From the IMG/VR virus record IMGVR_UViG_3300027833_001604, positions 1 to 64,000 of that record: a stretch of 64,000 nt of DNA; one strand, written 5' to 3'. The notes under the pieces were generated by a model. That model saw only the letters and a program-made list of their open reading frames with translations. It was not told the origin of the DNA and did no database searches. The translations under genes and the position numbers were made by a program. Positions 42,716-64,000 of this stretch are shown one piece after another. Source of the DNA: a virus. Within the stretch, counting starts at the first letter, position 1. Every line of letters begins with the position of its first letter.

Positions 42716-43246
42716 ATGGATAAAGAGATTAGAGACAAATACTTTGGTAATAATTGGAATCCCAATTATGATCATTACAAATACAGTGGATGGGCGTTAC
42801 TTGATAAAGTTGAACCCGAAGAAGAAGTATTGGATATTGGTTGCGGCTTTAATCTATTTAAAGATGCGTTTGGCGACAGACTACATGGCATAGATCCTGC
42901 AAATACAAAGGCCGATGAACTTGTTGGTATTATGGAGTTTGAAACAGATAAGCAATGGGACGTTGCATTTGCTTTAGGTAGTTTAAACTTTGGAACAGCA
43001 GAAGAGGTGGAGCCACAAGTAGAAAAAGCAATTAGTTTACTAAAACCAGGTGGACGTATTTACTGGAGGCAAAATCCAGGACTAGGTGACCATCCATGGA
43101 AAGGAATGGAAGAAATTGTTTTCTTCCCATGGAGCATGCAACTTAACTATGAATGGGCAGACAAATTTAAATGTGTAGTAGTTGAATGTAAATGGGATGC
43201 GGAAAGCGATCGAATTTATGCTGAATGGAAGAAATCAACTGTATGA
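42716..43246 (+). CDS. SAM-dependent methyltransferase
   Basis: A 176-residue class I methyltransferase. The start at 42716 follows thyA by one base. EVLDIGCGFNLFKDAFG (about 39-55) is motif I, LHGIDPANT motif II, WDVAFALGSLNFG motif IV-like and LLKPGGRIYWRQ a late strand. The next gene, a radical SAM/SPASM protein, overlaps by ATGA, so the two may modify the same substrate. Confidence 0.85.
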   Translation: MDKEIRDKYFGNNWNPNYDHYKYSGWALLDKVEPEEEVLDIGCGFNLFKDAFGDRLHGIDPANTKADELVGIMEFETDKQWDVAFALGSLNFGTAEEVEPQVEKAISLLKPGGRIYWRQNPGLGDHPWKGMEEIVFFPWSMQLNYEWADKFKCVVVECKWDAESDRIYAEWKKSTV

Positions 43247-44235: not shown

Positions 44236-44251
44236 TCCTAAACAGTTATAG

Positions 44252-44260
44252 ATAAATACT
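44252..44260 (+). promoter_or_regulatory. T4-type late promoter box
   Basis: ATAAATACT 27 bases before the GTG of the HtrA-like gene, the same spacing as at 2574/2609. A short intergenic gap surrounds it. Confidence 0.55.
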
Positions 44261-44286
44261 TATAACTAAAATAGGATGGAATACTA

Positions 44287-48912: not shown

Positions 48913-48917
48913 ATACT
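48908..48917 (+). promoter_or_regulatory. T4-type late promoter box
   Basis: TATAAATACT, a full match to the T4 late consensus TATAAATA, 21 bases before the thermonuclease start. It overlaps the preceding stop codon. Confidence 0.6.
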
Positions 48918-48937
48918 CTAACGGGAGGTTAGACTAC

Positions 48938-49455: not shown

Positions 49456-49812
49456 CTAATTATTGCTACAGTTGTTAACACATACCTTAGGCGGCATGTC
49501 ACTTTTCCAACCTTCGTAGTAAACATGAGTTTGAAATATTTCATGTGCAATGATTTCTTCAAGGCTATGATGTTCTAAATTATTCCAATTTGGATCATTT
49601 TCCATTAGTGTCATTATGCGTGTATCTTCTTTTAAGTCTTTGGTATCTTTTTCTACAAGTTGACCACTACCATCTTTTTTGTATACATTTCGCATATCCC
49701 ATGCATTACTAAAGAAGCAACAAGGCCACACTATGCCTTCGGGTGTTACTTCCCAACGTCTTACATCATTGTGATAATCAATTGCTTTACATTTAATATC
49801 ACACTTAGGCAT
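49456..49812 (-). CDS. SPASM-like domain protein, C-terminal half of a split radical SAM
   Basis: A 118-residue protein. MPKCDIKCKAID and EGIVWPCCFFSNAW near the N-terminus and CVNNC at the end are SPASM-type cysteines. The text matches the C-terminal part of the protein at 43243 (RGILWPCSYIY and CNMWC). It starts inside the last codons of the 49805-50458 gene (ATGCCTAA overlap), which carries only the barrel. Either the ancestral gene was broken by a one-base change and works as two chains, or the assembly has an error. Confidence 0.8.
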   Translation of the reverse strand: MPKCDIKCKAIDYHNDVRRWEVTPEGIVWPCCFFSNAWDMRNVYKKDGSGQLVEKDTKDLKEDTRIMTLMENDPNWNNLEHHSLEEIIAHEIFQTHVYYEGWKSDMPPKVCVNNCSNN

Positions 49813-50458
49813 AATTGTAACCTATATTAATCTCATTGTCGGCACATAGTTTATCACATGCTTGCATATTTGTATCTGTAATTAATCCATAAGAACGATC
49901 ATTGTAACGGAATATAATATTAACATTCATGTCATCTGCTAGTTGTTTAGCTAATGTAACCTGTTGCCAATTCCAATCAAATATTAGATATAACCAATTA
50001 GTATTGCCACCGTTACTAGAAAATGCTTTCATATTATCAATTGCTCGGTCAAAGTCAACGCCTTCTCTATACAACCAGTTAACATCATGTGTGGCGCCAT
50101 CTATTGCAAAGTCTATCTTTAATCTTTGCTTATACTTTTGTGCAATTGTTTCATACCAATCTGGTGTGCGTAGTCCACCGTTTGTTGATATACTAACCAT
50201 TGGAGCATAATCCAATGCAGTTTGTATAAAGGTATCAACTTGTGGATGCATCATAGGATCGCCAAACTCTCCACAAAATTCAATGTCGTCAAGTTCTACA
50301 GTTTTAAGATTTGATAGTCTGCGTTTAAATACTTCTAGGTCCATGTGCTTTAATTTGACCCATTCATTCTTTTCGCCAGTTTCTTCATTGGTTCTAGCAC
50401 AACTACGACATTTGGCTTGACAATAAGTTGTAAGTGCAAAGTCAAAAGAATGTTTCAT
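49805..50458 (-). CDS. radical SAM barrel protein, N-terminal half of a split enzyme
   Basis: A 217-residue protein. TYCQAKCRSC (C13, C17, C20) is the radical SAM motif; EFCGEFGDPMMHP stands at the SAM-binding strand, with GEFGDP in place of GGEP. It lacks a C-terminal cluster domain; that lies in the next gene downstream. The protein resembles the one at 43243 (GNVGDF in the same place). It overlaps the oxygenase gene upstream by four bases. Confidence 0.85.
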   Translation of the reverse strand: MKHSFDFALTTYCQAKCRSCARTNEETGEKNEWVKLKHMDLEVFKRRLSNLKTVELDDIEFCGEFGDPMMHPQVDTFIQTALDYAPMVSISTNGGLRTPDWYETIAQKYKQRLKIDFAIDGATHDVNWLYREGVDFDRAIDNMKAFSSNGGNTNWLYLIFDWNWQQVTLAKQLADDMNVNIIFRYNDRSYGLITDTNMQACDKLCADNEINIGYNYA

Positions 50459-51090
50459 CTCTCTCGTAACCGCTCTTGTATAAATCTAATGCTATCGTCT
50501 GTTACTTGTGCATTAACTACTAACCAAATGCTATCGTGTGATGTGCTGCAATTAAATAATGTGTGTTGCTTTGTTGTATTGACTACATAACACTCGCCAT
50601 AATCAAAGTGAAGTGTGTTATTTTCTAACATGAATCTACAATGAGGTGCGTTACAATTTTCTAATGCCCATATAAGTCTAAAACTAGTTTGCTCACCCCA
50701 TACATGATCTCTATGTGGTGGAAAGTATCCACCTGGTGGTAGTCTTAGGAAGTGTGATCTAACACTCCAGTCTAACATAGGTCCTACTACTCGTTGTAAC
50801 TCAGAGCTGGTATGATATAATTCTGTAGGAACATTAAAATCTTCTTCTTGGAAGTTTGTTCCATACTCTCTATTCCATTCACCTAAACTATCTAGTGCTG
50901 GTCCTGGGCCACACTTACCACTTTCATTAATAATACACAAGCCGTGACGTTTAATCCAATCTTTGCGTGGATTATACTTTGCCCACTTGTCATCATGCAC
51001 TGAGACTTCGCCAAGCAATTTGTCTATATCAAATTCGGCGCCAATCTGATAAAAGTCACCGAACTGCGTAATTTTTGAAATATCATTCAA
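50455..51090 (-). CDS. non-haem iron oxygenase, aspartyl/asparaginyl hydroxylase-like
   Basis: A 211-residue protein. LPPGGYFPPHRDHVWG (about 115-130) has the H-x-D iron ligands, TSFRLIWAL follows, and CYVVNTTKQHTLFN (about 166-179) has the distal His. This arrangement matches aspartyl/asparaginyl beta-hydroxylase-like enzymes using 2-oxoglutarate. The neighbour is the split radical SAM. A similar oxygenase-radical SAM pair is found at 55003-56707, which suggests consecutive oxidation steps on one substrate. Confidence 0.8.
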   Translation of the reverse strand: MNDISKITQFGDFYQIGAEFDIDKLLGEVSVHDDKWAKYNPRKDWIKRHGLCIINESGKCGPGPALDSLGEWNREYGTNFQEEDFNVPTELYHTSSELQRVVGPMLDWSVRSHFLRLPPGGYFPPHRDHVWGEQTSFRLIWALENCNAPHCRFMLENNTLHFDYGECYVVNTTKQHTLFNCSTSHDSIWLVVNAQVTDDSIRFIQERLRER

Positions 51091-51099
51091 TTTGATTTC

Positions 51100-51936
51100 C
51101 TACTCGTCGTGTGTGTTGACATAGTTCTGTTTGAACGATGTCTGCGGATTCTCTCCGCCATTTACACGGTTGTTTAGATGTTTTACATATTGGACCATGT
51201 TATGATCGGAAAATGAATCTAATTTACCTTTAAACAATCCTCTAATAATACCACGCCACACATCTTTGACTCGTTGCCATCCTGTTAAGTTTCTAAGGTT
51301 ACCATAGTGATTAAAGTATTGGCATTGTCCATGATGAACATAACCAAATATTATAAATGGAACTCTAGCTACTATGTCTGCGTTGTTAAGCCAACGATAA
51401 TGTGTAAAAGGAAAATTGTCAAGGTAAGTTCTCCAACCTACTCTTGGTGATCCAAATGTATGTAATTCTTTAGGATTATATAATGCACTGTCGCCTCTGC
51501 AACGACTTGCTACTATAGTTGACATAGCTGCACCAAGTGAATGTCCACATAACCAAATGTGACGTTTTGCTTGTTCTCTAACTAGGTCTTCTTTGATTAA
51601 ATCCCATAGTTTGTCTACTTCACCTTTAAACCCACCATGCACTCTGCCCACTGTTTCTGCAACAACTGGAAATGCTCTGGCGTCTGCTTTAATATCATTG
51701 TATTGTGTTGGCTGTGTGCCTCTGCATGCAATCACTAAATCATGTTTATTCATAAAGCGATATGCTTCTGCACCATCTATGTTATAAAACTCAACAGTAG
51801 TGAATCCTAATTTCCTTGCTAGTTTTTTAACCTCACTTGCTTCATAATAAGCAATTTGGGCCAGTTCTGCAAATAATAAGGCTCGTTCATTACCTGATAG
51901 TAATTCTATTTTAGTTTTTAGTTTTGTGCTAAACAT
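51100..51936 (-). CDS. class 3 lipase
   Basis: A 278-residue alpha/beta hydrolase. IACRGTQ (about 69-75), GHSLGAA with the nucleophile Ser133, NNADIVARVP with Asp187 and SDHNM with His245 form the triad pattern of class 3 lipases. No signal peptide is present, so the enzyme would act from the cytoplasmic side, perhaps on host membrane lipids at lysis. A late box TATAAATA lies just upstream. It interrupts the radical SAM run and may be expressed separately. Confidence 0.92.
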   Translation of the reverse strand: MFSTKLKTKIELLSGNERALLFAELAQIAYYEASEVKKLARKLGFTTVEFYNIDGAEAYRFMNKHDLVIACRGTQPTQYNDIKADARAFPVVAETVGRVHGGFKGEVDKLWDLIKEDLVREQAKRHIWLCGHSLGAAMSTIVASRCRGDSALYNPKELHTFGSPRVGWRTYLDNFPFTHYRWLNNADIVARVPFIIFGYVHHGQCQYFNHYGNLRNLTGWQRVKDVWRGIIRGLFKGKLDSFSDHNMVQYVKHLNNRVNGGENPQTSFKQNYVNTHDE

Positions 51937-51944
51937 AGTTGTAT

Positions 51945-53075
51945 TTATACCTTACGTTTAGGTATCTTACTATCTGCACTTGAAACACATGCTTTTGTTG
52001 TGCATATTGTAGGTTTATCAAACAATTTAAACCCTGTTTCAATATTACCTAACGGTTGATCACCACAACTATAACTACGTTTTATACTTCCGTCTGGCTC
52101 ACGTATGATAATACCTTGGTATCCACTGTTACACATCCAGCCTTTGAAGTTATTAAACTCAAATGCATTAAAACGTTCCGCTTGGTCCATATACCATTTT
52201 TTGCCTTTAGAGTCTGTAAACTCTACTTGCATGTTCCACGGAACACTAGCATCGTTTCTACCAATAGTATACTCTGGCATTTCAAAACTTGGCTTAGGAC
52301 GTTCAACTACTCTTGCTTCTGCAGCTTTTTGTTCTGTATAACTACGCTGTGGCATTCCATTGTGTAATTTCTTTTTCATCTCAGGTGTATAACCATCTAC
52401 TACTCTACTTGCAGTTGGATCTGACTGAGGTTTTAGTGTAACGTTAATACCTTGTTTATGAAAGAACAATGCATTATCATAATATGTATCAAACAGCTCA
52501 GGCACCATAACCATGTTAATAGTTATTTGCACATCATGTTCTTGACAAAGTATTAGTTTATCTGCAAGGTCTTGCATCTTCTCTGGTGTGTCAACATGCT
52601 CGATATGTAAACTACATGTAATACTAGCTCTATGAAAATGCTTTACGTAATCAACATACGTTTCAAACCATTTCATTGGCCTACTACAATTGCTTGTCAT
52701 ATGCACACTTGTATAGTTTGTGTTATGCACATCATCTGCTAGATGTTTTAACATATCTAAGTAACCAGGATGGAATGTAGGCTCGCCTCCACTTAAACTA
52801 AAATGGAAACTATTGAATCCGTTTTGTCTTGCTTGGCGTTTTATCTCGTCTATTGTTTTTAAGTTAAGTTCAGTAGGACGATGGTCCTTGCGATCACTAC
52901 GAGCATAAGGCCAGCAATAAGAACATCTGTAGTTACAGAATCTTCCTAGTAACCAACTAACTGTAAATAAATCACGATACAATAAAGTCCGTTGACCAAC
53001 TTGAACTAAATCATCAAATGGTATTTTTGTAAAATCATAATTTGACCACTTTAAGTCGTCTGTATCATTGCTCAT
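51945..53075 (-). CDS. radical SAM protein with C-terminal SPASM-like cysteines
   Basis: A 376-residue protein. GRFCNYRCSYCWPY (C47, C51, C54) and LSGGEPTFHP (about 103-112) are the canonical motifs. The C-terminal part has GWMCNSGYQGI, SYSCGDQPLGNI and CTTKACVSS, consistent with auxiliary cluster ligands. It differs from its neighbours by a longer barrel and no N-terminal cysteine domain. It overlaps the dehydrogenase-like gene by 11 bases. Confidence 0.93.
   Translation of the reverse strand: MSNDTDDLKWSNYDFTKIPFDDLVQVGQRTLLYRDLFTVSWLLGRFCNYRCSYCWPYARSDRKDHRPTELNLKTIDEIKRQARQNGFNSFHFSLSGGEPTFHPGYLDMLKHLADDVHNTNYTSVHMTSNCSRPMKWFETYVDYVKHFHRASITCSLHIEHVDTPEKMQDLADKLILCQEHDVQITINMVMVPELFDTYYDNALFFHKQGINVTLKPQSDPTASRVVDGYTPEMKKKLHNGMPQRSYTEQKAAEARVVERPKPSFEMPEYTIGRNDASVPWNMQVEFTDSKGKKWYMDQAERFNAFEFNNFKGWMCNSGYQGIIIREPDGSIKRSYSCGDQPLGNIETGFKLFDKPTICTTKACVSSADSKIPKRKV
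51952..51959 (-). promoter_or_regulatory. T4-type late promoter box, minus strand
   Basis: The minus strand reads TATAAATAC, then AACT, then the ATG of the lipase gene. This is a full late consensus, so close to the start codon that the mRNA would be nearly leaderless. Confidence 0.5.
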
Positions 53076-53637
53076 CTTTGTTTCCTATTTGTAATGGATC
53101 CACGCTTAGTTCATTAACTGATAAATGCTCTGGCATATTAATTACGTATTCAATTAAGTCTACGGCTTCGTCTAGTGTCATTGTTTTACGTCCTGGGTGC
53201 TTGTGTGCATTGTTCTCTAATGTGCCAAATGTAACATAACTTACCTTAGGACCACCTGACCAAATGCTTTTTAGACCCATTGCATTGCTTGTGCTACGTA
53301 GGGCCTTCTTTTCTTGTTGATAAAGCCAATCGCTACCCTTTGTAGCTCTGTCAGTTGTGGAGCCTAAATTAACTATATGTAGTCGTTTAAGGTGTCTTAA
53401 AGCGTCTTTATAGACTACATCTAGCACCAGTGTTTGATTGAAGCGCCATAATGCACTAGAGTTAATAAAAACGTCAAAGTTAAGAGCCTTTTCTGCAAGC
53501 TTCTCTCTATAGCCATTTTCAGTTAAATCGTAGCCCCATGTAGTTCTACCAACAAATACTGTATCAGGCCATCTTTTGGCAATAGCACTTGCTAAACCTT
53601 TTTCTGGATTACCTGTGCATAGTATTGTTTTAGACAT
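53065..53637 (-). CDS. short-chain dehydrogenase/reductase-like protein
   Basis: A 190-residue protein; I use the ATG at 53637, which overlaps the preceding gene by eight bases, and reject a longer frame starting inside it. TILCTGNPEKGLASAIAKRW is a variant Rossmann entry loop, FINSSALW stands for the NAG strand, and YQQEKKALR supplies the Y-x-x-x-K pair. It is shorter than typical SDRs (about 250). It could oxidise or reduce an intermediate of the surrounding radical SAM cluster. Confidence 0.7.
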   Translation of the reverse strand: MSKTILCTGNPEKGLASAIAKRWPDTVFVGRTTWGYDLTENGYREKLAEKALNFDVFINSSALWRFNQTLVLDVVYKDALRHLKRLHIVNLGSTTDRATKGSDWLYQQEKKALRSTSNAMGLKSIWSGGPKVSYVTFGTLENNAHKHPGRKTMTLDEAVDLIEYVINMPEHLSVNELSVDPLQIGNKDEQ

Positions 53638-54856
53638 CAATGTATCCTTCAAACTCAGGACATGCTTCAAGTAGTTTACCACGTTGCAGTTCATCCATTT
53701 TGAGATTGTAATCAACAAACTGTTGCCATAAATCTTCGTGCCAATCTTCAGCTGTCATATACTTTAGTGTGTCCATTACTTTAGGCCACTTTTGGTATGG
53801 TAGTAAATTTAATGCTGCTTTTTCTTTTAATGCCACAGGTAATACACGTATGTTCATACAATCTGGATGATTAAGAATATTAAGATACACTTGATCACCT
53901 TCCAATCCACGTGACTCTGCAAAGTCCAATAGTTCATGTAATGCACATATGTTAAGTGCTTGAACTGTGCAATGTATTTGAATATCTACATTATCAAACG
54001 TGCTTAATTCATCAAAGTTTTTCTCTACTTTTTCCCAACTACTTGGATAACGAATATATCTATCACGATGTCCAACTGCATCAATACTACAGTTAAGTTG
54101 CACACGTTTAAACTTACTCCAGTATTCAATCATCTTAGGTGGAATATTAGTTAGGTTAGTATTATATTTTAGTTTAATTCCACCTGCTAAATCATTTTCA
54201 ATACAATAGTCAAGTAATTTATATTGTGATGTAGCTAGTGTAGGCTCACCACCTGTTAAGTATATCTCTTGAACTGTATGTGCAATGTCTTGGAAGTTTA
54301 GCCCTGTCTTTTTAAAGTCTGGCCATTCAGTCATTACGTTCATAAACTTTAAAGTCTCACCTGTAAGTTCTACTGGTGGATCTAATTTCGCTGTTGGAAC
54401 TACTGCATTCCAATCTTTAACCCACATGCTACTTGCCCAAGGATTACACATTCTGCATTTTAAATTACATAGGTTGCCTAAACGTAAATCAACATAACGC
54501 ACATCCACTGGAATCTTAGTATCTACTTTAACATCATCTGTCCACCACTTTTCATTAAAGCCTGCACGTGGGCTACGAATGCCTGCGTCTTCTTCACGGA
54601 AACAACGAACACACATCTCTGGCTTTTCACCATTGAGAAACTCTTCTCTGATTTTTGTGTATGTAGGACTGTTCCATACTTCTTCTAAGTCATGTTTATA
54701 AATTTTAAACGGCTTGTCTGTTTCAGGGTTTACAATTTGATTTGTATTAGGATTACTGTTACAACACACCCTAAAGCTACCCGCAGCATTTGTTGCCACA
54801 TGCATAAACGGTAGCACACAAAATGTCTTACTTGGTAATGGTTTATCTGTTTTCAT
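53630..54856 (-). CDS. radical SAM protein with N-terminal twitch/SPASM-like domain
   Basis: A 408-residue protein. FCVLPFMHV (C13), RVCCN (C31, C32) and CVRC (C82, C85) make the N-terminal cluster domain; GNLCNLKCRMCNPW (C130, C134, C137) is the radical SAM motif and LTGGEPTLA the GGE motif. The layout is nearly that of the protein at 59940, so the two are paralogues. A 38-residue peptide gene precedes it by two bases. Confidence 0.93.
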   Translation of the reverse strand: MKTDKPLPSKTFCVLPFMHVATNAAGSFRVCCNSNPNTNQIVNPETDKPFKIYKHDLEEVWNSPTYTKIREEFLNGEKPEMCVRCFREEDAGIRSPRAGFNEKWWTDDVKVDTKIPVDVRYVDLRLGNLCNLKCRMCNPWASSMWVKDWNAVVPTAKLDPPVELTGETLKFMNVMTEWPDFKKTGLNFQDIAHTVQEIYLTGGEPTLATSQYKLLDYCIENDLAGGIKLKYNTNLTNIPPKMIEYWSKFKRVQLNCSIDAVGHRDRYIRYPSSWEKVEKNFDELSTFDNVDIQIHCTVQALNICALHELLDFAESRGLEGDQVYLNILNHPDCMNIRVLPVALKEKAALNLLPYQKWPKVMDTLKYMTAEDWHEDLWQQFVDYNLKMDELQRGKLLEACPEFEGYIDV

Positions 54857-54858
54857 TA

Positions 54859-54975
54859 TTATTCTCGTTTTGATAGTTTGGATTGTTTGTTTTTACCTGA
54901 CAGGTAACGGACCTCATCTGGCTCTCCAAACAGTTTTGTCCACCACTTTGTGATTAAGGCTTCCAGTTTTTTCAT
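54859..54975 (-). CDS. small peptide gene between two radical SAM genes, 38 aa
   Basis: A short frame, MKKLEALITKWWTKLFGEPD then VRYLSGKNKQSKLSKRE. It lies two bases before one radical SAM gene and 27 bases after another, with a late-type box upstream. A paired Trp and Lys-rich tail is of interest because some radical SAM enzymes link Trp and Lys in small peptides. A peptide substrate role is conjecture; it may just be a small protein. Confidence 0.5.
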   Translation of the reverse strand: MKKLEALITKWWTKLFGEPDEVRYLSGKNKQSKLSKRE

Positions 54976-54994
54976 ATGTTTCTCATAACGTTAC

Positions 54995-55001
54995 TATTTA
55001 T
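54995..55001 (-). promoter_or_regulatory. possible late promoter box, minus strand
   Basis: The minus strand reads ATAAATAGT about 20 bases before the 38-residue gene. It matches the late core but not the TATAAATA first base. It could start an internal mRNA for the radical SAM genes downstream. Confidence 0.35.
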
Positions 55002-55002
55002 T

Positions 55003-55974
55003 TTAAATAAAGTCTTGGTAGTTAGTACCATGTATCTCATCCATAATTTCGCTTTGTTCTATTAATATCTTTCTTAGTATTCCATCTTGCATTGCGTCAG
55101 GCGACATAAATGCTGGTTTTATTACAGGAGTTGATTGAAAGTAGTTTATTTTATTACTGTCACACCAATCTATTATTTCATCTAAGTTGTTTCTATTAAA
55201 CACCATAGGAAGTATAGTCACAGTCATATGTGTGTTCTTAGGTTTTTGCTTATTAAATATAACAGCATTTTCACTAGTTGTCAACCAGCTAGAACCAGGG
55301 CGTATGTATTCATAACGTTCACCTACTGCTTCTATGCTTATGTTTATTTCTACTCTTCTAAACTTCTCAAACAAATGATTCCATGCTGTCATGTCATAGC
55401 TTCCATTTGTTATTAAGTGTAATTCAATTGCAGATGCAACATCTTCGTCAATTAGACGTTGTATTATTTTCTTTACTTGTGGTATCATAAATGGTTCACC
55501 ACCTGTAAATTTTACAATCTTTGCATCTAACATAAGATGACTGAACTCTACTGCCTGCTTTGCCCAACGTGTATTAGGTTTATTATCATATTGCTTAGAC
55601 CAATTTTTATCTTGGTTATCTCTAACTATATTTGCCCATGTGCTACTGCTTGTCATATTACACATTCTACAAGCAAAATTACAAGTGTTGTTTATCTTTA
55701 AATCCCAATGCTTAATTCCTACTTCGTTTTCAAATTGCTTGTTATATGTTGTGCGTAAACTATCTCCTGTGAGTTCTTCACTTAGTTTACATTCAGCACA
55801 TTCATCTAGCCATTCAGTTTCACTACGCTTTCCCCATTCAGCATGACGTGTTTGCCAGTCGTCGGTCCAGAACAGGTTTTGTGTTCCTTGTTTTACTTCA
55901 AATGCACAACATGGCCTTACTGCTCCAGTAGGTCCTATTGTTACACCGTTTTTAAATATCGAACATCTTGGCAT
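55003..55974 (-). CDS. radical SAM protein with N-terminal twitch/SPASM-like domain
   Basis: A 323-residue protein, the shortest of its type. C4, PCC (C22, C23) and CAEC (C59, C62) form the N-terminal cluster domain, CNFACRMC (C98, C102, C105) binds the SAM cluster and FTGGEPFMIP is the GGE motif. The C-terminus is shorter than in paralogues. It overlaps the upstream oxygenase by 23 bases, so the two are strongly coupled. Confidence 0.92.
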   Translation of the reverse strand: MPRCSIFKNGVTIGPTGAVRPCCAFEVKQGTQNLFWTDDWQTRHAEWGKRSETEWLDECAECKLSEELTGDSLRTTYNKQFENEVGIKHWDLKINNTCNFACRMCNMTSSSTWANIVRDNQDKNWSKQYDNKPNTRWAKQAVEFSHLMLDAKIVKFTGGEPFMIPQVKKIIQRLIDEDVASAIELHLITNGSYDMTAWNHLFEKFRRVEINISIEAVGERYEYIRPGSSWLTTSENAVIFNKQKPKNTHMTVTILPMVFNRNNLDEIIDWCDSNKINYFQSTPVIKPAFMSPDAMQDGILRKILIEQSEIMDEIHGTNYQDFI

Positions 55975-56707
55975 AATTTTTGTTTACTATTCTCTTAAAA
56001 TCGTCAGTTGGTCCACCATCGAATATCATATGTATACGTGGCTCTTCGCTACGATTCCATACTGCATGATAATGGCCAGTGTTAATCTTCATTGCCAGTC
56101 CAGGCTCAAATGGCATAGTGCCGTAATCTTGTATAACTAGTTTGCACCCATCTGGATTATTAATGGCTACATTAGTTGCACCTAGTCCTGTCATTCGTTC
56201 TCTGTCTTGATGTGGTCTAATCCAACCGCCTGGTAGTAGTGCCATAAATCTAACACGACTAAAGTTTTCGTATAGCATTTCATCTTGCATCCATTCTTTA
56301 GTAATTGGTGTAAATTTACTAATGTCTGTCCAGTCACTTAATTCATGTTCTGCTTCGTCTGGCATTCCGTAATCTTCTGGACAATTAGTATGCACACTAC
56401 TCATACCATGCACACATAAACTTAACCAGCCACCGCCGCTGTTTGCTCTGTGTAAACTAAAGCATTCAGTTTCTAGCAAGTGTATTGCTTCTGCATGTAT
56501 TTCTTTCCATGGCACATTAATATCTGGTAATGCTACCCATGGGACTCTTGTGTTATCACCAACGTCATTTAAATCTTCTGGTATAATTTGTTCTTTGTCA
56601 GCACTACCGGGCGAGCGTTGTGAATGTTTACGTTCGTTAGCGTAGAACCACTCCTTTGACTCTTCGTCAATTTCTTCCCAATATGCTAAACGTTTATAAT
56701 CTTTCAT
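55952..56707 (-). CDS. non-haem iron oxygenase, aspartyl/asparaginyl hydroxylase-like
   Basis: A 251-residue protein. LLPGGWIRPHQDRERMTG (about 163-180) holds the H-x-D ligands, GCKLVIQDYG a core strand and INTGHYHAVWNRSEEPRIHMIFDGG (cited in parts, about 208-232) the distal His and the Arg for 2-oxoglutarate. It is the second such enzyme next to a radical SAM gene. Its start overlaps the stop of the long unknown gene by one base. Confidence 0.82.
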   Translation of the reverse strand: MKDYKRLAYWEEIDEESKEWFYANERKHSQRSPGSADKEQIIPEDLNDVGDNTRVPWVALPDINVPWKEIHAEAIHLLETECFSLHRANSGGGWLSLCVHGMSSVHTNCPEDYGMPDEAEHELSDWTDISKFTPITKEWMQDEMLYENFSRVRFMALLPGGWIRPHQDRERMTGLGATNVAINNPDGCKLVIQDYGTMPFEPGLAMKINTGHYHAVWNRSEEPRIHMIFDGGPTDDFKRIVNKNYAKMFDI

Positions 56708-58185
56708 TATATTATTCCTGGTAACAATCTCATGTTTTGATACTCGTAGTATTCACCACCTGGTGTATCACCTGAGAAATATATAGTTTTGTTATTTTGC
56801 AATAACTCGTTGAATAGATCAACGAATGCCGCTTGTGCATTAAAGTTTGGTGAGTTAATATAATTGATTTCATATTGCCAGATATTACTTAGTTGTAACA
56901 ATGCTATACGATCTTTTCCAATTAGACTTGATAAACGTTTCCATTCTTTTACTATGTCAATTTTAATAAATTGATGATCCAGTGTTCTAATAAAATCCCA
57001 ATGCTCTAACCAATCTTCTTCGCTGTCATAACTTTCAATAAAGGCTAATGCATTTTCTTTGTCATACCAGATAAACTCATCACTTGGTAATCCCAAGTCA
57101 GTAATCACATGGAAGTTATCTTTATAGAACTTATCAAAGTCTAATCCATCCCAATGTTTTAATAGATGTTCTGTCCAGCCAATACCAAACGGACTAAAGT
57201 CTGTCCATAATATACGCTTGAGTGTATCACGTTGATGACTGATGTGCTTAAACTGATGTAACCCACTACACGGAACTACAAGTGTATCAATGCCCAGTGG
57301 GTCACCACCTGGAACATGTTCTGTATTAGTAACATACATAATATGTGTGTCCATTACTTTATATTGAAATAGTTCACGCTTGTCATCATTTACTAAATTA
57401 TATCCGTAACTACGACTTTCGTCAAGGCTAAGTCTTGTGTTAAAGTCATAATCAAAAAACCATTCTTTTGTAAATTCTAAATCATCTTCTACATAGCAAC
57501 ATATCTTATGATTACGTATATCGTAATCTAAGTTATGTATTGTTAAACCATTTAAAAATGCTAACGGAAATAACGTATTAAAAAAGTCATCATTAAAATC
57601 TTCTGGCTTATCAATTATTTCGCTGTCACCGTCAAACACTGCATCTTTGGCAGATACCCATGTAGGGGTGTAGTTATCATGCATATGTTCAGTTGATGAT
57701 CTATAGCTTGGATGTTGTTGTAACTGATCACCAATATTCTCTAAACTTTCAAACTGTGATAATAAAGGTTCAAATGCTTTAAGGTTAAGAACAATGCATT
57801 GCTCATGCCACTTAGGAGCCTGTCCTACATAGTCTATAATATGACCAGCTGCTAACCAATCAGTTTTGTTCCACTTGTTATCTATTGCATTTATTACTTC
57901 CTCGTCAAACTCTGTTTCGCCTGGCCAATTCCCATCAAACCAAATCACAGCATTTTGATATCCAAGAATACATAGATGTCTAATAGCATCTCCAAAAAAT
58001 CCTTCACGATATCTATCACAATGCAAGAAAGAATATTCTGTGCTGTTGTTAATATTGATTTGCATAAGTTTTTTTAGTTTGCCTGCATAAGCATCTTCTT
58101 CTTTTAAAGCAGGATGCAATACTTCATTGAAGAACACATGAACTATCTTATTATCTTTTAACTCTGGTTTTATTTTTAAATACAT
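56707..58185 (-). CDS. large protein of unknown family, paralogue of next
   Basis: A 492-residue protein. Landmarks are LCILGYQNAVIWFDGNWPGE (about 79-98), MYVTNTEHVPGGDPLGID (about 283) and a C-terminal TLKRILWTDFSPFGIGWTEH then KHWDG. The next protein shares WFEGVWPDT, VNTEPSSP and TIKHWNGEDFPKW at matching places. The two are probably glycan- or nucleotide-related enzymes of one fold, but I cannot name it. The C-terminal half of the protein at 38425, fused there to an oxygenase, looks distantly related. Tight coupling to the oxygenase suggests a common substrate. Confidence 0.6.
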   Translation of the reverse strand: MYLKIKPELKDNKIVHVFFNEVLHPALKEEDAYAGKLKKLMQININNSTEYSFLHCDRYREGFFGDAIRHLCILGYQNAVIWFDGNWPGETEFDEEVINAIDNKWNKTDWLAAGHIIDYVGQAPKWHEQCIVLNLKAFEPLLSQFESLENIGDQLQQHPSYRSSTEHMHDNYTPTWVSAKDAVFDGDSEIIDKPEDFNDDFFNTLFPLAFLNGLTIHNLDYDIRNHKICCYVEDDLEFTKEWFFDYDFNTRLSLDESRSYGYNLVNDDKRELFQYKVMDTHIMYVTNTEHVPGGDPLGIDTLVVPCSGLHQFKHISHQRDTLKRILWTDFSPFGIGWTEHLLKHWDGLDFDKFYKDNFHVITDLGLPSDEFIWYDKENALAFIESYDSEEDWLEHWDFIRTLDHQFIKIDIVKEWKRLSSLIGKDRIALLQLSNIWQYEINYINSPNFNAQAAFVDLFNELLQNNKTIYFSGDTPGGEYYEYQNMRLLPGII

Positions 58186-59636
58186 TATTCGAATCCTATT
58201 CCTCTATTATCTGTTGCACTAAGAATTGCACTAGCAGGACACATTAAATCATTATCATTTATATCTGTTCCACTAAACCAACTATCTTCGTGTGTGTTAC
58301 ATACTCGTTCTATCATTTGTGTAAAACTTGTTTCAAGTGCAAACGGCTTTGCCATTAGTTTTGGTGTGATATAGCTATATATGTTACTACTCCAAAATAA
58401 TGTTTTGCTGTCATCCATTTGTTTAAACATATCATCGTGGTCGTATATTAGATCAATGTTAAAATATTGATGATTACACTGCTTTACTTTATTCCAAAAC
58501 TCTAACCACTTTACTGGGCCATCAAAGTAATCAATTACTCTCGACCAACGTTCGTGTGCCATTGCTACTAAACGGTCATTACAACCTGGGTGTGCGTGAA
58601 CCCACATGTCTACCCATTTTGGAAAGTCTTCTCCGTTCCAATGCTTTATTGTATCACGTTTAAACTGAACACTATCAGCGTCAAAGTCAAACCATACAAA
58701 ACGTGTATTCTCTGTCATTCCATACTTGTAAGCATAGTATAGAAGCTTAAAACCAGCCGTAGCGCCTACGTATTGCTCAAAGTTAGTATCTAGTGCTTGT
58801 TGTGAAATACTTGGGCTACTAGGCTCTGTATTAACGAAATAGATAGGGCTAGTTGGCCCATGTATTCTACTGATTAATCTATTGCCTTGATTAGATACAA
58901 CGCTATTATTGTATTCTTGTCCTGTAATACCCTTTTCAAATTCTGTTGTTCCCATGTGTGCTTTAGGCGTAAAAACATGTTCCATTAGGTTATCTGATAA
59001 TCCCCACACTGTAAGATTTTGAATGAAACTAAGTTGCATCCAATTGGAACCAAAGTTATGTTGATTTGAAAAATGCTCAGGACGAGGATCTGTAAACTTC
59101 CAATCAGGGTGAACATTAAGTCTGTAGTCACTGTCCTCGTAATTTAAACTTGTATCATAGTTTATACATTCTGGGTGATGTTCTGATTCCCAATATGGAC
59201 TTATGCTGTTATGTTTAATCCATTGTGGTATGTTTATTACTAGTAAAGTTCTTTCAAAGTAAGGATACTTGTCATTACCAGTTCGAAGTTGTCCACTAAT
59301 GATCCAATTTGGATCTTCTTTATTATTACGATCTATTTCATTTAGTAATGTTAAATTAAAATCCATTGTATCAGGCCATACACCTTCAAACCACAAACAT
59401 GCATATTTGTATCCTAATTTGTTCATAGCTGTTAGCCATGTTGCATCATATTGATTGTATACATTAACAATACCACCACGTAAATGATTGTTACATTCTA
59501 CATCTTGCAATACACTAAGTTTTTGTTTTAATATAGGTGTGTCATTGAGTTCTTTGTCAAGTGGCAAAAATGCATTAACGATAGGCCAGCTACCATCCAC
59601 ATGATTATATTCCCAACTTTGTTGACCTTGCTTCAT
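58185..59636 (-). CDS. large protein of unknown family, paralogue of previous
   Basis: A 483-residue protein with the same landmarks: NKLGYKYACLWFEGVWPD (about 74-91), IYFVNTEPSSPS (about 268), TRFVWFDFDADSVQFKRD and HWNGEDFPKWVDMW later. FDFDAD has a D-x-D look as in some glycosyltransferases, but this is a weak clue. It overlaps the gene before it by ATGA and the paralogue by one base. Function unassigned. Confidence 0.6.
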   Translation of the reverse strand: MKQGQQSWEYNHVDGSWPIVNAFLPLDKELNDTPILKQKLSVLQDVECNNHLRGGIVNVYNQYDATWLTAMNKLGYKYACLWFEGVWPDTMDFNLTLLNEIDRNNKEDPNWIISGQLRTGNDKYPYFERTLLVINIPQWIKHNSISPYWESEHHPECINYDTSLNYEDSDYRLNVHPDWKFTDPRPEHFSNQHNFGSNWMQLSFIQNLTVWGLSDNLMEHVFTPKAHMGTTEFEKGITGQEYNNSVVSNQGNRLISRIHGPTSPIYFVNTEPSSPSISQQALDTNFEQYVGATAGFKLLYYAYKYGMTENTRFVWFDFDADSVQFKRDTIKHWNGEDFPKWVDMWVHAHPGCNDRLVAMAHERWSRVIDYFDGPVKWLEFWNKVKQCNHQYFNIDLIYDHDDMFKQMDDSKTLFWSSNIYSYITPKLMAKPFALETSFTQMIERVCNTHEDSWFSGTDINDNDLMCPASAILSATDNRGIGFE

Positions 59637-59767
59637 TTAGCTGCTTGCTCCAACAGTTGATTTAATTTAATTCGTAACTTGTCTAAATGCTTGTCGCTAA
59701 TTTTTTCAGCCTCGCATACACTTATACGTTCTTTTATGATTTCAATTTCTTTTAGAATATCTTTCAT
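59633..59767 (-). CDS. small coiled-coil protein, 44 aa
   Basis: A short gene in ATGA overlaps at both ends. The protein (ILKEIEIIKERISVCEAEK, LDKLRIKLNQLLEQAAK) is a probable coiled coil with one Cys. It may be an oligomerisation helper for the large paralogue it is coupled to. Overlaps on both sides argue for a real gene. Confidence 0.6.
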   Translation of the reverse strand: MKDILKEIEIIKERISVCEAEKISDKHLDKLRIKLNQLLEQAAK

Positions 59768-59943
59768 TCAATTTTCCTCCAATGATGTGTGTCTTGTTCA
59801 GTTGGCAGTTGGCCAATATATTCTTCACCTGTTTCCATATCTATTAGTTTCCATTTGCTTGGACATTTAGTCTTTACTTTTAATGTTATTGCTACATCAT
59901 AAGCAGGCACTTCTGCACCACTGACTCTTAACTTACGGTTCAT
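59764..59943 (-). CDS. small protein, 59 aa
   Basis: A short gene joined by ATGA overlaps to the radical SAM gene upstream and the coiled-coil gene downstream. The protein is beta-rich (VPAYDVAITLKVKTK, KWKLIDMETGEEYIGQL) and ends with HHWRKIE. It could be a small ligand-binding or partner domain. No family is recognised. Confidence 0.6.
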   Translation of the reverse strand: MNRKLRVSGAEVPAYDVAITLKVKTKCPSKWKLIDMETGEEYIGQLPTEQDTHHWRKIE

Positions 59944-61175
59944 TTACTTTGTCTTTCGTTTTCCTGTGCTACAATGTCCATACCCTCAAGTGGCATATTC
60001 AAATAAGTCTTAACCATTTTCTTTAGGTTTATATCTTGTTTATAACGTTCTTCTATATCACGTGTATACTTTCGCATACGAGCATATATCATATAATCGC
60101 TTTGATTGTTTTCCATGTAGGTTGCAAACCTTTTCATCTCTGGATGTTCGTGTTGGTTAGCTCGTAACTTTCTAATAATAGCATCTCTGTAGTCGCCTTG
60201 CCAGATTGCTGGAGACAAATACTTAGGGGTATGTAGTATGTTGGCTGTAATAAACTTTAGGTCAACTGGGCTGTCTTTCCAAAACTGAAAGAACTCTGGC
60301 ATTTGATATATGTTGTGTGCTTGCACTGTAATACCAGCGGCAACATCAATTCCAGGTTCATTGTTTAGTGCCATCATGTTAGCGTAAACTGTATCCCAAT
60401 TGCCGTCTTGTCTAATGTAATTGTATACATCATCAATACCGTCCATACTTACTTTAATGTTTACGTGTTTAAATTCATTCCATATTTTAATTAAGTCATA
60501 CTTCTTAAACTTAATATAACTTAGATTAGTAGCATAACGTAATTTTATTTTCTTCTTAAGATCCTGTGGTATTCCAGCTAACAAGTCGTAGTGTTCTTTA
60601 TTAATGATAGGCTCACCGCCAGTAAACTGTAGTGTATGCACTGTGTCCCATAGTTCAGGCCATTCATTTAAACTAGCAAACAAATCAGTTGGACGCAACA
60701 AACGTGTTTCATATCCATCTTTAGTATACTTGCTAATGATGTCTAAGTCTGCTACACGCTTGTAAGAACTGTGTGTGCTACACATAATACACTTTAGGTT
60801 ACAGAAGTTACTTACTTTAAGTTCCACCCAGTAAGGCGGGTTGTTGACGCTGTAATCGTCATTTACGCTTATCTTATCTGCAAATGTATCCCAATTATCT
60901 TTTTCCCATTGTATGCGGTTGCTAACGATTCCACTGTCCTCGTTGTGCCAGCACACTTCACAGCGTTCTGGTCTTTCGTCATTTGCTAAGGCCCGTCTTA
61001 GCTCTTTATAGTTGTCGTTATTCCAGCTCTCAAGTGCTGACTCGCCTGGGTTATTCAATGGGACTTCTTGTGCTTCGCAACATGGAACCATGTCACCACC
61101 AGCACTGCCATAGATATGCATATACGGTAGCATGCAAAAACTTTTGCTATTTTTGAGTTTGTCTTTGTTAATCAT
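59940..61175 (-). CDS. radical SAM protein with N-terminal twitch/SPASM-like domain
   Basis: A 411-residue protein. FCMLPYMHI (C14), MVPCCEAQ (C32, C33) and CEVC (C72, C75) are the N-terminal cluster ligands; FCNLKCIMCS (C125, C129, C132) is the radical SAM motif and FTGGEPII the GGE motif. It is closest in layout to 53630-54856. It overlaps the next gene upstream by one base. Confidence 0.93.
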   Translation of the reverse strand: MINKDKLKNSKSFCMLPYMHIYGSAGGDMVPCCEAQEVPLNNPGESALESWNNDNYKELRRALANDERPERCEVCWHNEDSGIVSNRIQWEKDNWDTFADKISVNDDYSVNNPPYWVELKVSNFCNLKCIMCSTHSSYKRVADLDIISKYTKDGYETRLLRPTDLFASLNEWPELWDTVHTLQFTGGEPIINKEHYDLLAGIPQDLKKKIKLRYATNLSYIKFKKYDLIKIWNEFKHVNIKVSMDGIDDVYNYIRQDGNWDTVYANMMALNNEPGIDVAAGITVQAHNIYQMPEFFQFWKDSPVDLKFITANILHTPKYLSPAIWQGDYRDAIIRKLRANQHEHPEMKRFATYMENNQSDYMIYARMRKYTRDIEERYKQDINLKKMVKTYLNMPLEGMDIVAQENERQSK

Positions 61176-62383
61176 TAGTAAGGTATATACTCTATTTTAT
61201 CTTTATACTCTGCTTCACACAAAGTTTTTAATCTGCGTATGCATGGCTCGTTAAAATCAAAGCCACGTATTTTCCAAATATGTTTTAGGTTAGCCAAATA
61301 AGCTGCACTGAAATCTTCAGCACCGTTTGGCTTACACATATCTTCTACTAGTTTTTTCATCTTGTTAACACGGTTAGGATTGATAACCGTTTCATTATAC
61401 TGATAACGAAATGCGTCTAGTAGTTTTTCTTTAAACCAATCAGGCCAGTGTGTAACACTAAGGTTGTTTGGTTCGTATACTGTTTGTAGTATAACATTAT
61501 TTACTTTCTTTACACTGCGGGCCCAAACAACAAAGTCAAACAAGTATAGTATATTCATAATACTAATTGTGCATGCTATATTAACTTTAACTTTGTCTGG
61601 ATACTCTTGCTTAAATGCCAGCCACTTGTCTAGTGTATCTTCTATCTTTTCCCACTTGCTAGGATAACGTATCATGTCATTAAGTTTACCATGTGCGTCA
61701 ATACTCATGCTAAGTGTAAGTTCTTTGAATTGAAACAATGCATCATATTCTGCTTTCTTTGGCCAAAATGTGCAATTGCTAAAAATTTCCATATGTATCT
61801 GTGGAGCCAATCCTGCGTCTGCAAGTCTTAAAACAAACTTCATAAACTGTGGATGCAAGAATGGTTCACCACCTGTAACTTTCATATGCTTTAGATGTTT
61901 TAATGCATCCAAGTCAATTGAATCAAAATCTACAACTTGATTCTTTTTTAGTTTAGTAATCAAGTCAATTGCTGCTTGTGAGTTTTTGTTAAACTTCAAG
62001 TAGTCGTCATCCCAATTGTGACTAAACTCTGGTCCACATGTTTGACATGTTAAGTTGCATAATCTACCCACTGTAATTTCTAAATACTCTAAACGCACCT
62101 CATCAGTAAAGTCTGTAAAGAACTCATCTGCTTCAGTTCTCATACTGCTACCTTTGGTTTCCTCATCAGCTTTACATTTGTAGCAACCAGGGTGCCATTC
62201 ATTACGCATCATAGTTTCACGTATGTCAGTGAACATCTCACCATACACGTTAACATGTTCCTTGTCGCTTTCTTCTAGAAACCTATCATGGAATCTACAA
62301 CAAGGTGTAGTTGGAACACCATGCATAATCATACCCGCTTTAAACGGATATGCACATGCGTTTTTAGGTAGTTGTTTAGACAT
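61175..62383 (-). CDS. radical SAM protein with N-terminal twitch/SPASM-like domain
   Basis: A 402-residue protein. ACAYPFKAG (C10), TTPCCRF (C28, C29) and CYKC (C67, C70) lie at the N-terminus, then GRLCNLTCQTCGPE (C109, C113, C116) and VTGGEPFLHP. The first base overlaps the stop of the aminotransferase-like gene, so the two are coupled. Its substrate may be the product of that aminotransferase. Confidence 0.93.
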   Translation of the reverse strand: MSKQLPKNACAYPFKAGMIMHGVPTTPCCRFHDRFLEESDKEHVNVYGEMFTDIRETMMRNEWHPGCYKCKADEETKGSSMRTEADEFFTDFTDEVRLEYLEITVGRLCNLTCQTCGPEFSHNWDDDYLKFNKNSQAAIDLITKLKKNQVVDFDSIDLDALKHLKHMKVTGGEPFLHPQFMKFVLRLADAGLAPQIHMEIFSNCTFWPKKAEYDALFQFKELTLSMSIDAHGKLNDMIRYPSKWEKIEDTLDKWLAFKQEYPDKVKVNIACTISIMNILYLFDFVVWARSVKKVNNVILQTVYEPNNLSVTHWPDWFKEKLLDAFRYQYNETVINPNRVNKMKKLVEDMCKPNGAEDFSAAYLANLKHIWKIRGFDFNEPCIRRLKTLCEAEYKDKIEYIPY

Positions 62384-63369
62384 TAAAGCCAGGTACCCTT
62401 TTGTTTGTAGTTTTTAAGTGCATGTCTAATGTTTACTCTATTATACACGCCATCTTTTTTAAATCGTTTCCATTGTTCCGCCTCTGGTGCTTGTGCAATG
62501 TGTATTGTATTAGTTGGCTCAAGTCCGTAGTGTTCACATAGTTCTACGTGTTCTTTCATATACTTCTTAGGCATAGTGTCAGGGCTAAAATTTCTCATAA
62601 GCTCGTTTGCAATGCATACGTTTAAGTGAATACCATGCTTCCATTCTGTTTGCACTGCTAATGCGCCTTCGTTTAGTTTACTGAATACGATACCTGCACG
62701 CCAGTTACCACAGCTAAGACCTTTTGTAGTGCTGAATGCAACCATCTTAATACACTTTCTATCAAGGTTAATTTCAATACCGTGACATGTTCCAAACCAA
62801 GCCATGTCTACAAATACAGGAATGTCGTTTGCATCACAGAAGTCTAACGACTCTTCCATCTTGCTATGCTTTGCACCAGTGCCACTAAATGGCAAACTAA
62901 TAAGCAATGCATCGCCTTTTTGCAATGGAGTGTCATCAATGTAACGATGGCTTAACCATTCTTCGCCTAGGATTGCGTCTCTATTGTATGGATACTCTCC
63001 ACGGAACATACGGAACTCACGTCCATTTTGTAAACACCAGTAGTGCCACCAATCCATTCCTTGTGTAGTTCCTAGGCTTACAAACCTATTTGGATAACTA
63101 CGTAAGCCTTCAATTTTATTTAACTTACTGCTTTCAATCCAATCTGGATACAATTCTAAATATGCATCACATTCGTCTTGCATACTAAAGATATCCATGT
63201 TGCCAAACACATGTTCAACTACATGATCATAAAACGGCATATTCCAAATACTGTTGCCGTTTGTTTCAAAAATTTCAGTTAGCTTTTTTGCTTCTTCTAC
63301 ATTAAGATGATCGAACGGACTATAGTGCGGTGTCATCTCGGTTCTGCTTGTTACTTTTTCATTCTTCAT
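62383..63369 (-). CDS. PLP-dependent aminotransferase-like protein
   Basis: A 328-residue protein of fold type I. SLGTTQGMDWW (about 98-108) is in the phosphate-binding place, VFVDMAWFG has the pyridine-binding Asp188, and FSTTKGLSCGNWRAGIVF has the Schiff-base Lys216 and a conserved Arg224. This is the class I/II aminotransferase pattern. The small domain seems short. It sits between a radical SAM gene and a possible tail protein, and may make an amino sugar or amino acid for the system. It overlaps the gene before it by 11 bases. Confidence 0.8.
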   Translation of the reverse strand: MKNEKVTSRTEMTPHYSPFDHLNVEEAKKLTEIFETNGNSIWNMPFYDHVVEHVFGNMDIFSMQDECDAYLELYPDWIESSKLNKIEGLRSYPNRFVSLGTTQGMDWWHYWCLQNGREFRMFRGEYPYNRDAILGEEWLSHRYIDDTPLQKGDALLISLPFSGTGAKHSKMEESLDFCDANDIPVFVDMAWFGTCHGIEINLDRKCIKMVAFSTTKGLSCGNWRAGIVFSKLNEGALAVQTEWKHGIHLNVCIANELMRNFSPDTMPKKYMKEHVELCEHYGLEPTNTIHIAQAPEAEQWKRFKKDGVYNRVNIRHALKNYKQKGTWL

Positions 63370-63946
63370 AATCTAAATCCCTTAATAAAACTTCTTTCCA
63401 ACGCTCACCGTCAAAGAATAATAATTTTGCACGAGTTGAATTGACTTCCATATAAGAAGCTAGTGTTCCTGCTCCTACGGAATGATCCATTTTATCAGCA
63501 TTGTATATGTTATGTAATCGCACCGGTGCATTAATATCTACCTGTTTTGCGGATGCATTAACAACTACTTTAACATCTCTGTCGTTAAGTGATTTTGGAG
63601 TTCCAACCACAAGTTGAGCTTCGTGATATTTACTTGTTCTATATACACCTCTAAAAGCTGCGGTTGTAACTGTAATACTTTTCTCATTGTCTACTTCAAG
63701 TGAGTTTGATATACCAAAGTATATTTGTTGTCCTACATTATCTTCAAAGTTTCCGTTAATTGCTGAATAGTCATGTAATATTCCTCTAAACAAATCTTCA
63801 TTGTTTTCACTTGGAATTTTATCCCATCGCATATTTGTTTGTAATGGGTAATCAAACGAGTTAAAATCGGTTTTATGGTTCTCAAACTTTTCTATATCAA
63901 CTGGCTTAATTTTTTTGTGTGTGTGACGTGCTGGTGTAAAATTCAT
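63359..63946 (-). CDS. possible tail- or fibre-associated structural protein
   Basis: A 195-residue protein that appears beta-rich, with AFRGVYRTSKYHEAQLVVG and a C-terminal GTLASYMEVNSTRAKLLFFDGERWKEVL. Endings of the type A-x-LLFFDGxxWKxV recall terminal domains of fibre or neck proteins in T4-like marine phages. If so, the radical SAM block lies next to the tail genes. The call is by style only, without a firm family match. Confidence 0.45.
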   Translation of the reverse strand: MNFTPARHTHKKIKPVDIEKFENHKTDFNSFDYPLQTNMRWDKIPSENNEDLFRGILHDYSAINGNFEDNVGQQIYFGISNSLEVDNEKSITVTTAAFRGVYRTSKYHEAQLVVGTPKSLNDRDVKVVVNASAKQVDINAPVRLHNIYNADKMDHSVGAGTLASYMEVNSTRAKLLFFDGERWKEVLLRDLDYEE

Positions 63947-64000
63947 TTGTAATTCTTCATTTCTGGTATACTGTTAAATGTATCGGTGTTTCTAAGTCTG
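63943..64000 (-). CDS. partial CDS, C-terminal 18 residues at window edge
   Basis: The minus strand enters the window in a reading frame ending RLRNTDTFNSIPEMKNYK, with the stop overlapping the next start (ATGA). The rest lies outside, so nothing more can be said. The overlap style matches the minus-strand run. Confidence 0.5.
   Translation of the reverse strand, partial: RLRNTDTFNSIPEMKNYK

Follow-up and report, generated by a model that had tools for sequence, protein, structure and literature searches.

Results

A conserved block of radical SAM genes in a phage record

The first 64,000 nt of the marine virus record IMGVR_UViG_3300027833_001604 (here G000, 109,013 bases; the window analysed is its bases 1-64000) carry part of a minus-strand block of about 25 tightly packed genes, with start/stop overlaps, ten of which encode radical S-adenosylmethionine (SAM) enzymes (rSAMs; Table 1). 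This gene set occurs together and in order in every related contig that is long enough, which gives good support to the proposal of an initial annotation, made from the window sequence, that the block is a biosynthetic or tailoring pathway carried by the virus. The reading that we favour, with a little less than even confidence, is that the block builds or modifies an unusual glycoconjugate that most likely sits at the infected cell's surface or on the virus particle. The overlapping minus-strand arrangement had been correctly recognised, but the end placed at 62383 had not: the block continues past the window to record position ~74,791.

All the genes that had been listed are present. The six CxxxCxxC genes in the window part of the block each reach the Pfam Radical_SAM cut-off (the one at 61175 exactly, with 29.5 bits), and no orthologue of the 10 block rSAMs lacks the motif. 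Across the record it occurs in 14 of the 75 proteins of at least 200 amino acids (aa), versus a mean of 0.13 in shuffled proteins, and within the block in 10 of 23 (hypergeometric P 6e-4); the protein at 13835, one of the 14, is simply Cys-rich, and the record total is 13 rSAMs (12 retrieved with the profile NF033640 plus the gene at 49805). Seven of the 10 block rSAMs, together with two outside it (9273 and 33084), exceed the curated cut-off of NF033640 (N-terminal twitch rSAM; 170 bits, whole model), whereas rS1, rS0a, rS7 and the gene at 43225 miss it and class only as generic rSAMs. N-terminal to the core, rS2-rS5, rS8 and rS9 have five auxiliary cysteines and rS6 only three. The family name of NF033640 gives no function in itself, the open-access full-text literature that we searched held nothing direct on this family or on rSAMs in Bdellovibrio, and the rSAM and pyridoxal 5′-phosphate (PLP) enzyme profiles matched no solved structure convincingly.

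The rSAM at 49456/49805 had been described as split, and two genes are indeed involved, rS0a (CxxxCxxC kept in 4/4 orthologues) and rS0b (reciprocal best hits in G001, G002 and G003). Recurrence of the two-gene form in G001-G003 led us to reject a frameshift or assembly error as the cause. Split pairs of 240+120 aa also recur in other records and in bacteria and, judging from these comparisons, rS0a/rS0b is a conserved two-gene enzyme and not a broken gene.

Table 1. Genes of the block and further features of the record (record and window numbering coincide up to position 64,000; 2OG, 2-oxoglutarate; ORF, open reading frame).
Feature	Coordinates	Strand	Evidence and remarks
rS0b, SPASM-like C-terminal partner, 118 aa	49456..49812	-	Pfam SPASM E 4e-4, just below cut-off
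rS0a, rSAM core, 217 aa	49805..50458	-	PF04055 E 5e-10; NF033640 32.5 bits
AspHydA, Asp/Asn beta-hydroxylase-like 2OG oxygenase (H126xD)	50455..51090	-	PF05118 25.3 bits, cut-off 22.6
Lipase (class 3)-like alpha/beta hydrolase	51100..51936	-	PF01764 E 1e-17
rS1, without N-terminal twitch	51945..53075	-	PF04055 E 8e-14; NF033640 50.5 bits
SDR-like (short-chain) dehydrogenase	53065..53718, likely start 53634	-	Profile match to PDB short-chain dehydrogenases, E 1e-6
rS2, N-terminal twitch	53630..54856	-	NF033640 374.7 bits; CxxxCxxC in 12/12 orthologues
rS3, N-terminal twitch	55003..55974	-	NF033640 184.3 bits
AspHydB, Asp/Asn beta-hydroxylase-like 2OG oxygenase (H166xD)	55952..56707	-	PF05118 E 1e-10
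UnkA, two-domain	56707..58185	-	AlphaFold2 pLDDT 91.3, pTM 0.89
UnkB, UnkA paralogue	58185..59636	-	BLASTP to UnkA E 3e-17, 21% identity
Small ORF, 59 aa, directly downstream of rS4	59764..59943	-	
rS4, N-terminal twitch	59940..61175	-	NF033640 313.0 bits; CxxxCxxC in 14/14
rS5, N-terminal twitch	61175..62383	-	NF033640 235.7 bits; CxxxCxxC in 14/14
PLP-dependent aminotransferase-like	62383..63369	-	PF00155 19.5 bits, below cut-off (19.7)
u195, fast-evolving, accessory	63359..63946	-	dN/dS 0.37-0.50; only in G001 and G013
rS6	63943..65196	-	NF033640 261 bits; 3′ end (63943..64000) in window
rS7	65186..66250		NF033640 30.7 bits, under cut-off; beyond window
Amidinotransferase	66254..67342		Beyond window
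Kdo-hydroxylase-like (weak)	67482..68318	+	Beyond window
rS8	70162..71436		NF033640 295 bits; beyond window
MTAN-like	71436..71987		Between rS8 and rS9; beyond window
rS9	71984..73417		NF033640 419 bits; beyond window
2OG-like (2OGc)	73427..74131		Beyond window
u219	74132..74791		Block end; beyond window
Extra N-terminal twitch rSAM, outside block	9273..10496	+	NF033640 238.6 bits
A-type Fe-S carrier (IscA/SufA-like)	28248..28652	+	PF01521 41.7 bits, cut-off 26.3
Extra N-terminal twitch rSAM, outside block	33084..34460	+	NF033640 251 bits
Extra rSAM, rS7-like, outside block	43225..44235	+	PF04055 E 1e-10; NF033640 28.9 bits

Gene order and selection

Reciprocal best hits and gene order on the fetched stretches were used to define a core order across 13 other IMG/VR records, which have 9-25 NF033640 matches per contig; some of these contigs are near-duplicates (G005/G006, G007/G012, G008/G009 and G010/G011) and they therefore represent about nine distinct lineages. 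The collinear core runs SDR, rS2, rS3, AspHydB, UnkA, UnkB, rS4, rS5, PLP, rS6, rS7, amidinotransferase, Kdo-hydroxylase-like, rS8, MTAN, rS9, 2OGc and u219, followed by small conserved genes. The same order is found in further contigs (e.g., L061, L063, L065 and L068), and variable extra rSAMs are present at one end of the cluster. Values of dN/dS against three relatives are mostly 0.05-0.25, with u195 as the exception, and the catalytic motifs are retained in all orthologues for nearly all the enzymes tested. Divergence between lineages is faster for UnkA, UnkB and rS3, which fall to 32-37% identity, than for most rSAMs, which stay at about 45-88%.

A loose pile-up of host-derived metabolic genes, unrelated and each with its own role, would account for the accessory genes (lipase, u195, u338, SGNH-like and extra rSAMs), which differ between records, but it is highly improbable and largely refuted by the conserved gene order: across divergent contigs the core keeps its order and shows purifying selection, and the paralogous rSAMs split long ago and are each still conserved. 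Since this order is conserved and profile searches place most rSAMs in one subfamily, NF033640, neither an independent occurrence of the genes in relatives nor a scatter of the enzymes over unrelated subfamilies, the two outcomes that would have spoken against the initial annotation, was found.

Other enzymes of the block

The two H-x-D...H oxygenases that had been noted both belong to PF05118, and the HxD...H motif of AspHydB is kept in 13/13 orthologues. The SDR-like gene has a conserved YxxEK, with Y133 and K137 invariant, and the invariant columns of the PLP-like enzyme include Lys216, Asp188 and Arg224. The profile of the amidinotransferase matches the pentein-fold relatives HsvA, StrB1 (streptomycin, inosamine-phosphate), SxtG and AGAT (E 1e-31 to 3e-18), and its catalytic Cys and His motifs GGxHCxT (GGIHCLT) and HxDG are present in 13/13 orthologues. 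Likewise, the MTAN-like protein (a putative 5′-methylthioadenosine/S-adenosylhomocysteine nucleosidase; PF01048, 51 bits) carries the ME..A and D.AD signature in 12/12 orthologues. The Kdo-hydroxylase-like protein scores 17.5 bits with PF11004, under the cut-off of 25, and the HxD...H pattern searched for was found in 0/13.

The long genes UnkA and UnkB, correctly taken as paralogues, had no sequence matches in Pfam, PHROG or PDB. In Foldseek comparisons the N-terminal domain of UnkA, which was also modelled alone (pLDDT, the predicted local distance difference test, 87.6), matched mostly glycosyltransferase A-type (GT-A) transferases and nucleotidyltransferases, among them the PBCV-1 capsid glycosyltransferase (2p6w/2p72), GT8, COLGALT1 and SpsA, with template modelling (TM) scores of 0.3-0.43, and the C-terminal half matched class I methyltransferases of the NNMT type. 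The sole invariant column in 50 UnkA homologues is D329, located at the end of a central strand, which we take to be the usual place for binding the SAM ribose. By likeness of fold, and with modest TM-scores for the GT-A call, UnkA would combine a GT-A-like N-terminal domain with a class I methyltransferase-like C-terminal domain.

Probable cofactor support

Radical SAM catalysis consumes SAM and requires 4Fe-4S clusters, and MTAN removes 5′-deoxyadenosine, 5′-methylthioadenosine (MTA) and S-adenosylhomocysteine (SAH). The record encodes a full-length SAM synthetase (MetK; record 85128-86219, L025:5128-6219), with PF00438, PF02772 and PF02773 all over cut-off. Of 14 records, 11 have MetK, and the remaining three are those in which contig or cluster stops short of that region; among phage records at large the count is only 135 of 50,697. 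The A-type Fe-S carrier is also found in five related records, and in G012 there is also an aminotransferase class-V protein with the look of a cysteine desulfurase. Given the needs and by-products of rSAM catalysis, MetK, the A-type carrier and the MTAN-like protein probably form a support system for the rSAM enzymes. The PHROG family of MetK, phrog_1569, is listed there as of unknown function.

Relatives in bacteria and other phages

In a scan of 84,980 species genomes the best cellular relatives came from metagenome-assembled genomes (MAGs) of Bdellovibrionota, where homologues of rS1 (57-63% identity) and rS9 (54-65%) lie side by side, with rS7-like genes. Many rSAMs are clustered with UnkA, UnkB, AspHydB and a Kdo-hydroxylase-like gene in two of these genomes (L112 and L113), five Bdellovibrionota genomes have 4-20 NF033640 matches each, and the rSAM/UnkA/UnkB set is found on bacterial MAG contigs of up to about 0.9 Mb. 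The commonest family among the unassigned neighbours of the bacterial homologues is GT2 (10/68). In the rS9 tree the phage sequences group as a single clade (100/100), which falls among Bdellovibrionota at moderate support (92/92, 94/93); this suggests gene exchange between phages and Bdellovibrionota, although such a placement is no proof of host. Multi-copy clusters of N-terminal twitch rSAMs, often with GT2, were also seen in Bdellovibrionota contigs L112, L113, L116-L119, L122, L124-L126 and L129, and two adjacent twitch rSAM-like genes (28-31%) in L130, which is binned as Pacearchaeota and possibly viral.

Freshwater viral contigs (L079-L107) contain scrambled versions of the cluster with rS9 (41-46%), PLP, amidinotransferase, 2OGc (28-59%) and UnkA, neighboured by sugar-nucleotide enzymes, epimerases, tryptophan halogenases, QueC and AMP-binding genes. 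In L075-L078, UnkA, AspHydB and an rSAM lie downstream of VrlC (in L075, 61% identical to that of Pelagibacter phage Mosig), and the island after VrlC is the host-recognition cluster of pelagimyophages (PMC7029224). That hypervariable island likewise holds rSAM cassettes and glycosyltransferases, whereas the present block is much larger and strongly collinear, with no recognised tail fibres adjoining. The amidinotransferase adjoins an rSAM, a PLP enzyme, a 2OGc homologue (41%) and several glycosyltransferases in cyanophage S-SCSM2R, and rSAMs plus two nucleotide-diphospho-sugar transferases in Campylobacter phage CP220. CP220 and CPt10 are virulent myoviruses with 11-12 rSAM genes and an interchangeable module of 10-12 genes that includes five rSAMs and an amidinotransferase (PMC2853527); the CP220 amidinotransferase is 27% identical to ours (E 7e-25), but its rSAMs show weak similarity to those of the block (22-31% over short stretches) and the stretch examined has no UnkA/UnkB, MTAN, PLP or PF05118 set.

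Two further published systems were compared with the block. TARA_ERS488813_N000010 is described as a T4-like marine viral genome of 183 kb with 12 rSAMs and an A-type Fe-S carrier; it resembles G012 (183.8 kb, 25 NF033640 matches, A-type carrier) and possibly belongs to the same group. Its rSAMs are read there as Fe-S metabolism, in a passage that does not take up the order of the cluster, an amidinotransferase, MTAN, MetK or the GT-A/methyltransferase paralogues (PMC5332604). Gene clusters of jumbo cyanophages, with 2OG oxygenases, methyltransferases, a halogenase and glycosyltransferases, have been proposed to decorate a surface polysaccharide or make a metabolite; unlike the present block, no radical SAM core is described for them, the word 'radical' appearing nowhere in the text (PMC7824862).

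Probable function of the block

These settings share an amidinotransferase or glycosyltransferase-like enzyme, PF05118/2OG oxygenases and rSAMs, near glycosyltransferases or in host-recognition modules, and tailoring of a surface glycoconjugate would be their most economical reading. Folds resembling GT-A, the amidinotransferase, GT2 genes as neighbours in bacteria and a setting in tail-fibre modules make an envelope or virion glycan the favoured one of the targets first suggested; a tail-fibre protein is possible and DNA bases are disfavoured. In such a pathway, UnkA and UnkB would carry out sugar transfer and methylation, and the twitch rSAMs would dehydrogenate, epimerise or couple the sugar, or its carrier, by radical chemistry. 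An amine added by the PLP enzyme would be converted into a guanidino group by the amidinotransferase, with the 2OG oxygenases hydroxylating and the SDR setting carbonyl/alcohol states. MetK would supply SAM and the A-type carrier Fe-S clusters, the MTAN-like protein clearing 5′-deoxyadenosine, MTA and SAH. Phage glycosyltransferases are known to alter cell surfaces, and the likely benefit would be an altered receptor surface that excludes competing phages, or an altered adhesin. The analysis itself shows family-level gene identities, conserved order, selection, catalytic motifs and the presence of cofactor-support genes; glycan substrate, order of steps and benefit are what we infer.

Several points weigh against a glycan. 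No block gene reaches a Pfam/NCBIfam glycosyltransferase cut-off, the GT-A call comes from fold likeness at the TM-scores given above, and there are no sugar-nucleotide pathway genes inside the block (a UDP-glucose dehydrogenase and a nucleotide-sugar epimerase are encoded elsewhere in the record). Additionally, the best-known activity of SPASM/twitch rSAMs is peptide maturation, PF05118 oxygenases often have protein substrates, and for the twitch rSAMs a protein is an equally conceivable target. The main rival, rather unlikely in our view, is that rSAMs and hydroxylases modify a phage or host protein (tail fibre or adhesin) or a peptide akin to ribosomally synthesised and post-translationally modified peptides (RiPPs), with the paralogues acting at different residues. 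Mini-clusters of UnkA/UnkB and AspHydB, with or without an rSAM, among tail-fibre-like genes in L075, L081 and L097 agree with it, but protein modification has no need of the amidinotransferase and GT-A-like genes, and no short ORF is common to all clusters, the sole conserved one (59764-59943) being found in a minority. In a search for a RiPP precursor confined to two intergenic gaps we found just this accessory 59-aa ORF, and there was no PqqD-like element among the Pfam hits, no search aimed at PqqD having been made. The missing universal short ORF weighs against a cluster-encoded RiPP and not against a distant protein target.

The relatives of the amidinotransferase in natural-product or virulence pathways (StrB1, SxtG and HsvA), the tryptophan halogenase and AMP-binding enzymes of related records, and the secondary-metabolite clusters proposed in jumbo cyanophages (PMC7824862) are also compatible with a diffusible guanidino metabolite, aminoglycoside- or alkaloid-like, acting as antibiotic, toxin or signal during infection. 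We consider this quite unlikely, as we recognised neither an exporter nor a carrier protein nor a self-resistance gene among the block's genes and the neighbours of the bacterial homologues are glycosyltransferases.

Less likely still, indeed very unlikely, is hypermodification of phage DNA bases (thymidine or 7-deazaguanine type) by rSAM, PLP and oxygenase chemistry, with which a thymidylate synthase (41833-42714) and a GTP cyclohydrolase (phrog_2197) in the same record and QueC in the related freshwater contigs would be consistent. It is disfavoured because HMUDK_hel (5-hmdU kinase) and aGPT-Pplase3 gave no match in nine records, where the control was also silent, and because the rSAM/UnkA/UnkB set has cellular homologues on bacterial MAG contigs. 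A possible 7-deazaguanine pathway was noted separately, from a QueE-looking protein (L025:7955-8851; by eye, no Pfam hit) and the GTP cyclohydrolase (L026:2406-3104).

Returning to glycoconjugate tailoring, its most specific form, a cofactor-self-sufficient, virus-specific rSAM pathway for a novel guanidinylated and radically modified surface glycan, exchanged between marine phages and predatory Bdellovibrionota, is speculative and rather unlikely. Phages with 11-12 rSAMs have already been published, but the cluster appears undescribed in the literature searched, and what appears new is the conserved order of 20-plus genes, the NF033640 identity, the Bdellovibrionota link, the GT-A/methyltransferase-like paralogues and the conservation of MetK, Fe-S carrier and MTAN along with them. 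That a conserved viral cluster has about nine rSAMs, with as many as 25 rSAM matches in a single contig, implies bulk radical chemistry during infection, served by SAM and Fe-S supplies of its own. The cluster offers a common testable hypothesis for the marine and Campylobacter phages with many unexplained rSAMs, connects these phages with Bdellovibrionota genomes and draws attention to uncharacterised enzymes, namely NF033640 proteins and GT-A/methyltransferase fusions.

Identity of the virus and accessory genes

The record encodes a B-family DNA polymerase (phrog_262, E 2e-195), a clamp loader and a tRNA nucleotidyltransferase. The nearest public relatives of the polymerase, at 43-49% identity, are from Sinorhizobium phage Phosso, Agrobacterium phage Atu_ph07 and other jumbo phages (Atu_ph07/Rak2-type), and the comparison with T4-like phages made at first is only loosely right; T4 capsid Gp23 gave no match in eight partial records (our own and relatives), although the control was also silent. 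Whole-region megablast against public phage genomes retrieved no close relative, and rS5, rS9 and UnkA had only weak Vibrio-phage or single-cell marine matches, or none, among public phages.

The lipase-like gene, which the initial annotation had passed over, is accessory and adjoins the cluster only in G001. The 59-aa ORF is 76-88% identical in G002, G010/G011 and the L065 contig and absent from G001 and others. The position between rS4 and UnkB is a variable cassette slot, occupied by a 93-94-aa ABM-type monooxygenase-like gene (by eye) in G010/G011 and G007/G012 and by a nitroreductase-like gene (238 aa) in G013. A staphylococcal-nuclease-like protein (window 48875-49405) directly adjoins the block and is kept in G001, G012 and G013. 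SGNH-like N-termini (IIGCSFSAGW, FIGTSHTFG; by eye) occur in a tandem pair (window 16203-16994 and 17012-17782) and separately at record 69312-70181. Lastly, a tryptophan halogenase is fused to a WYL_2 Sm-like domain in L049:8007-9452 (G012 44007-45452), and a WYL_2 plus CDGSH-like protein is encoded at 82167-82541 of our own record.

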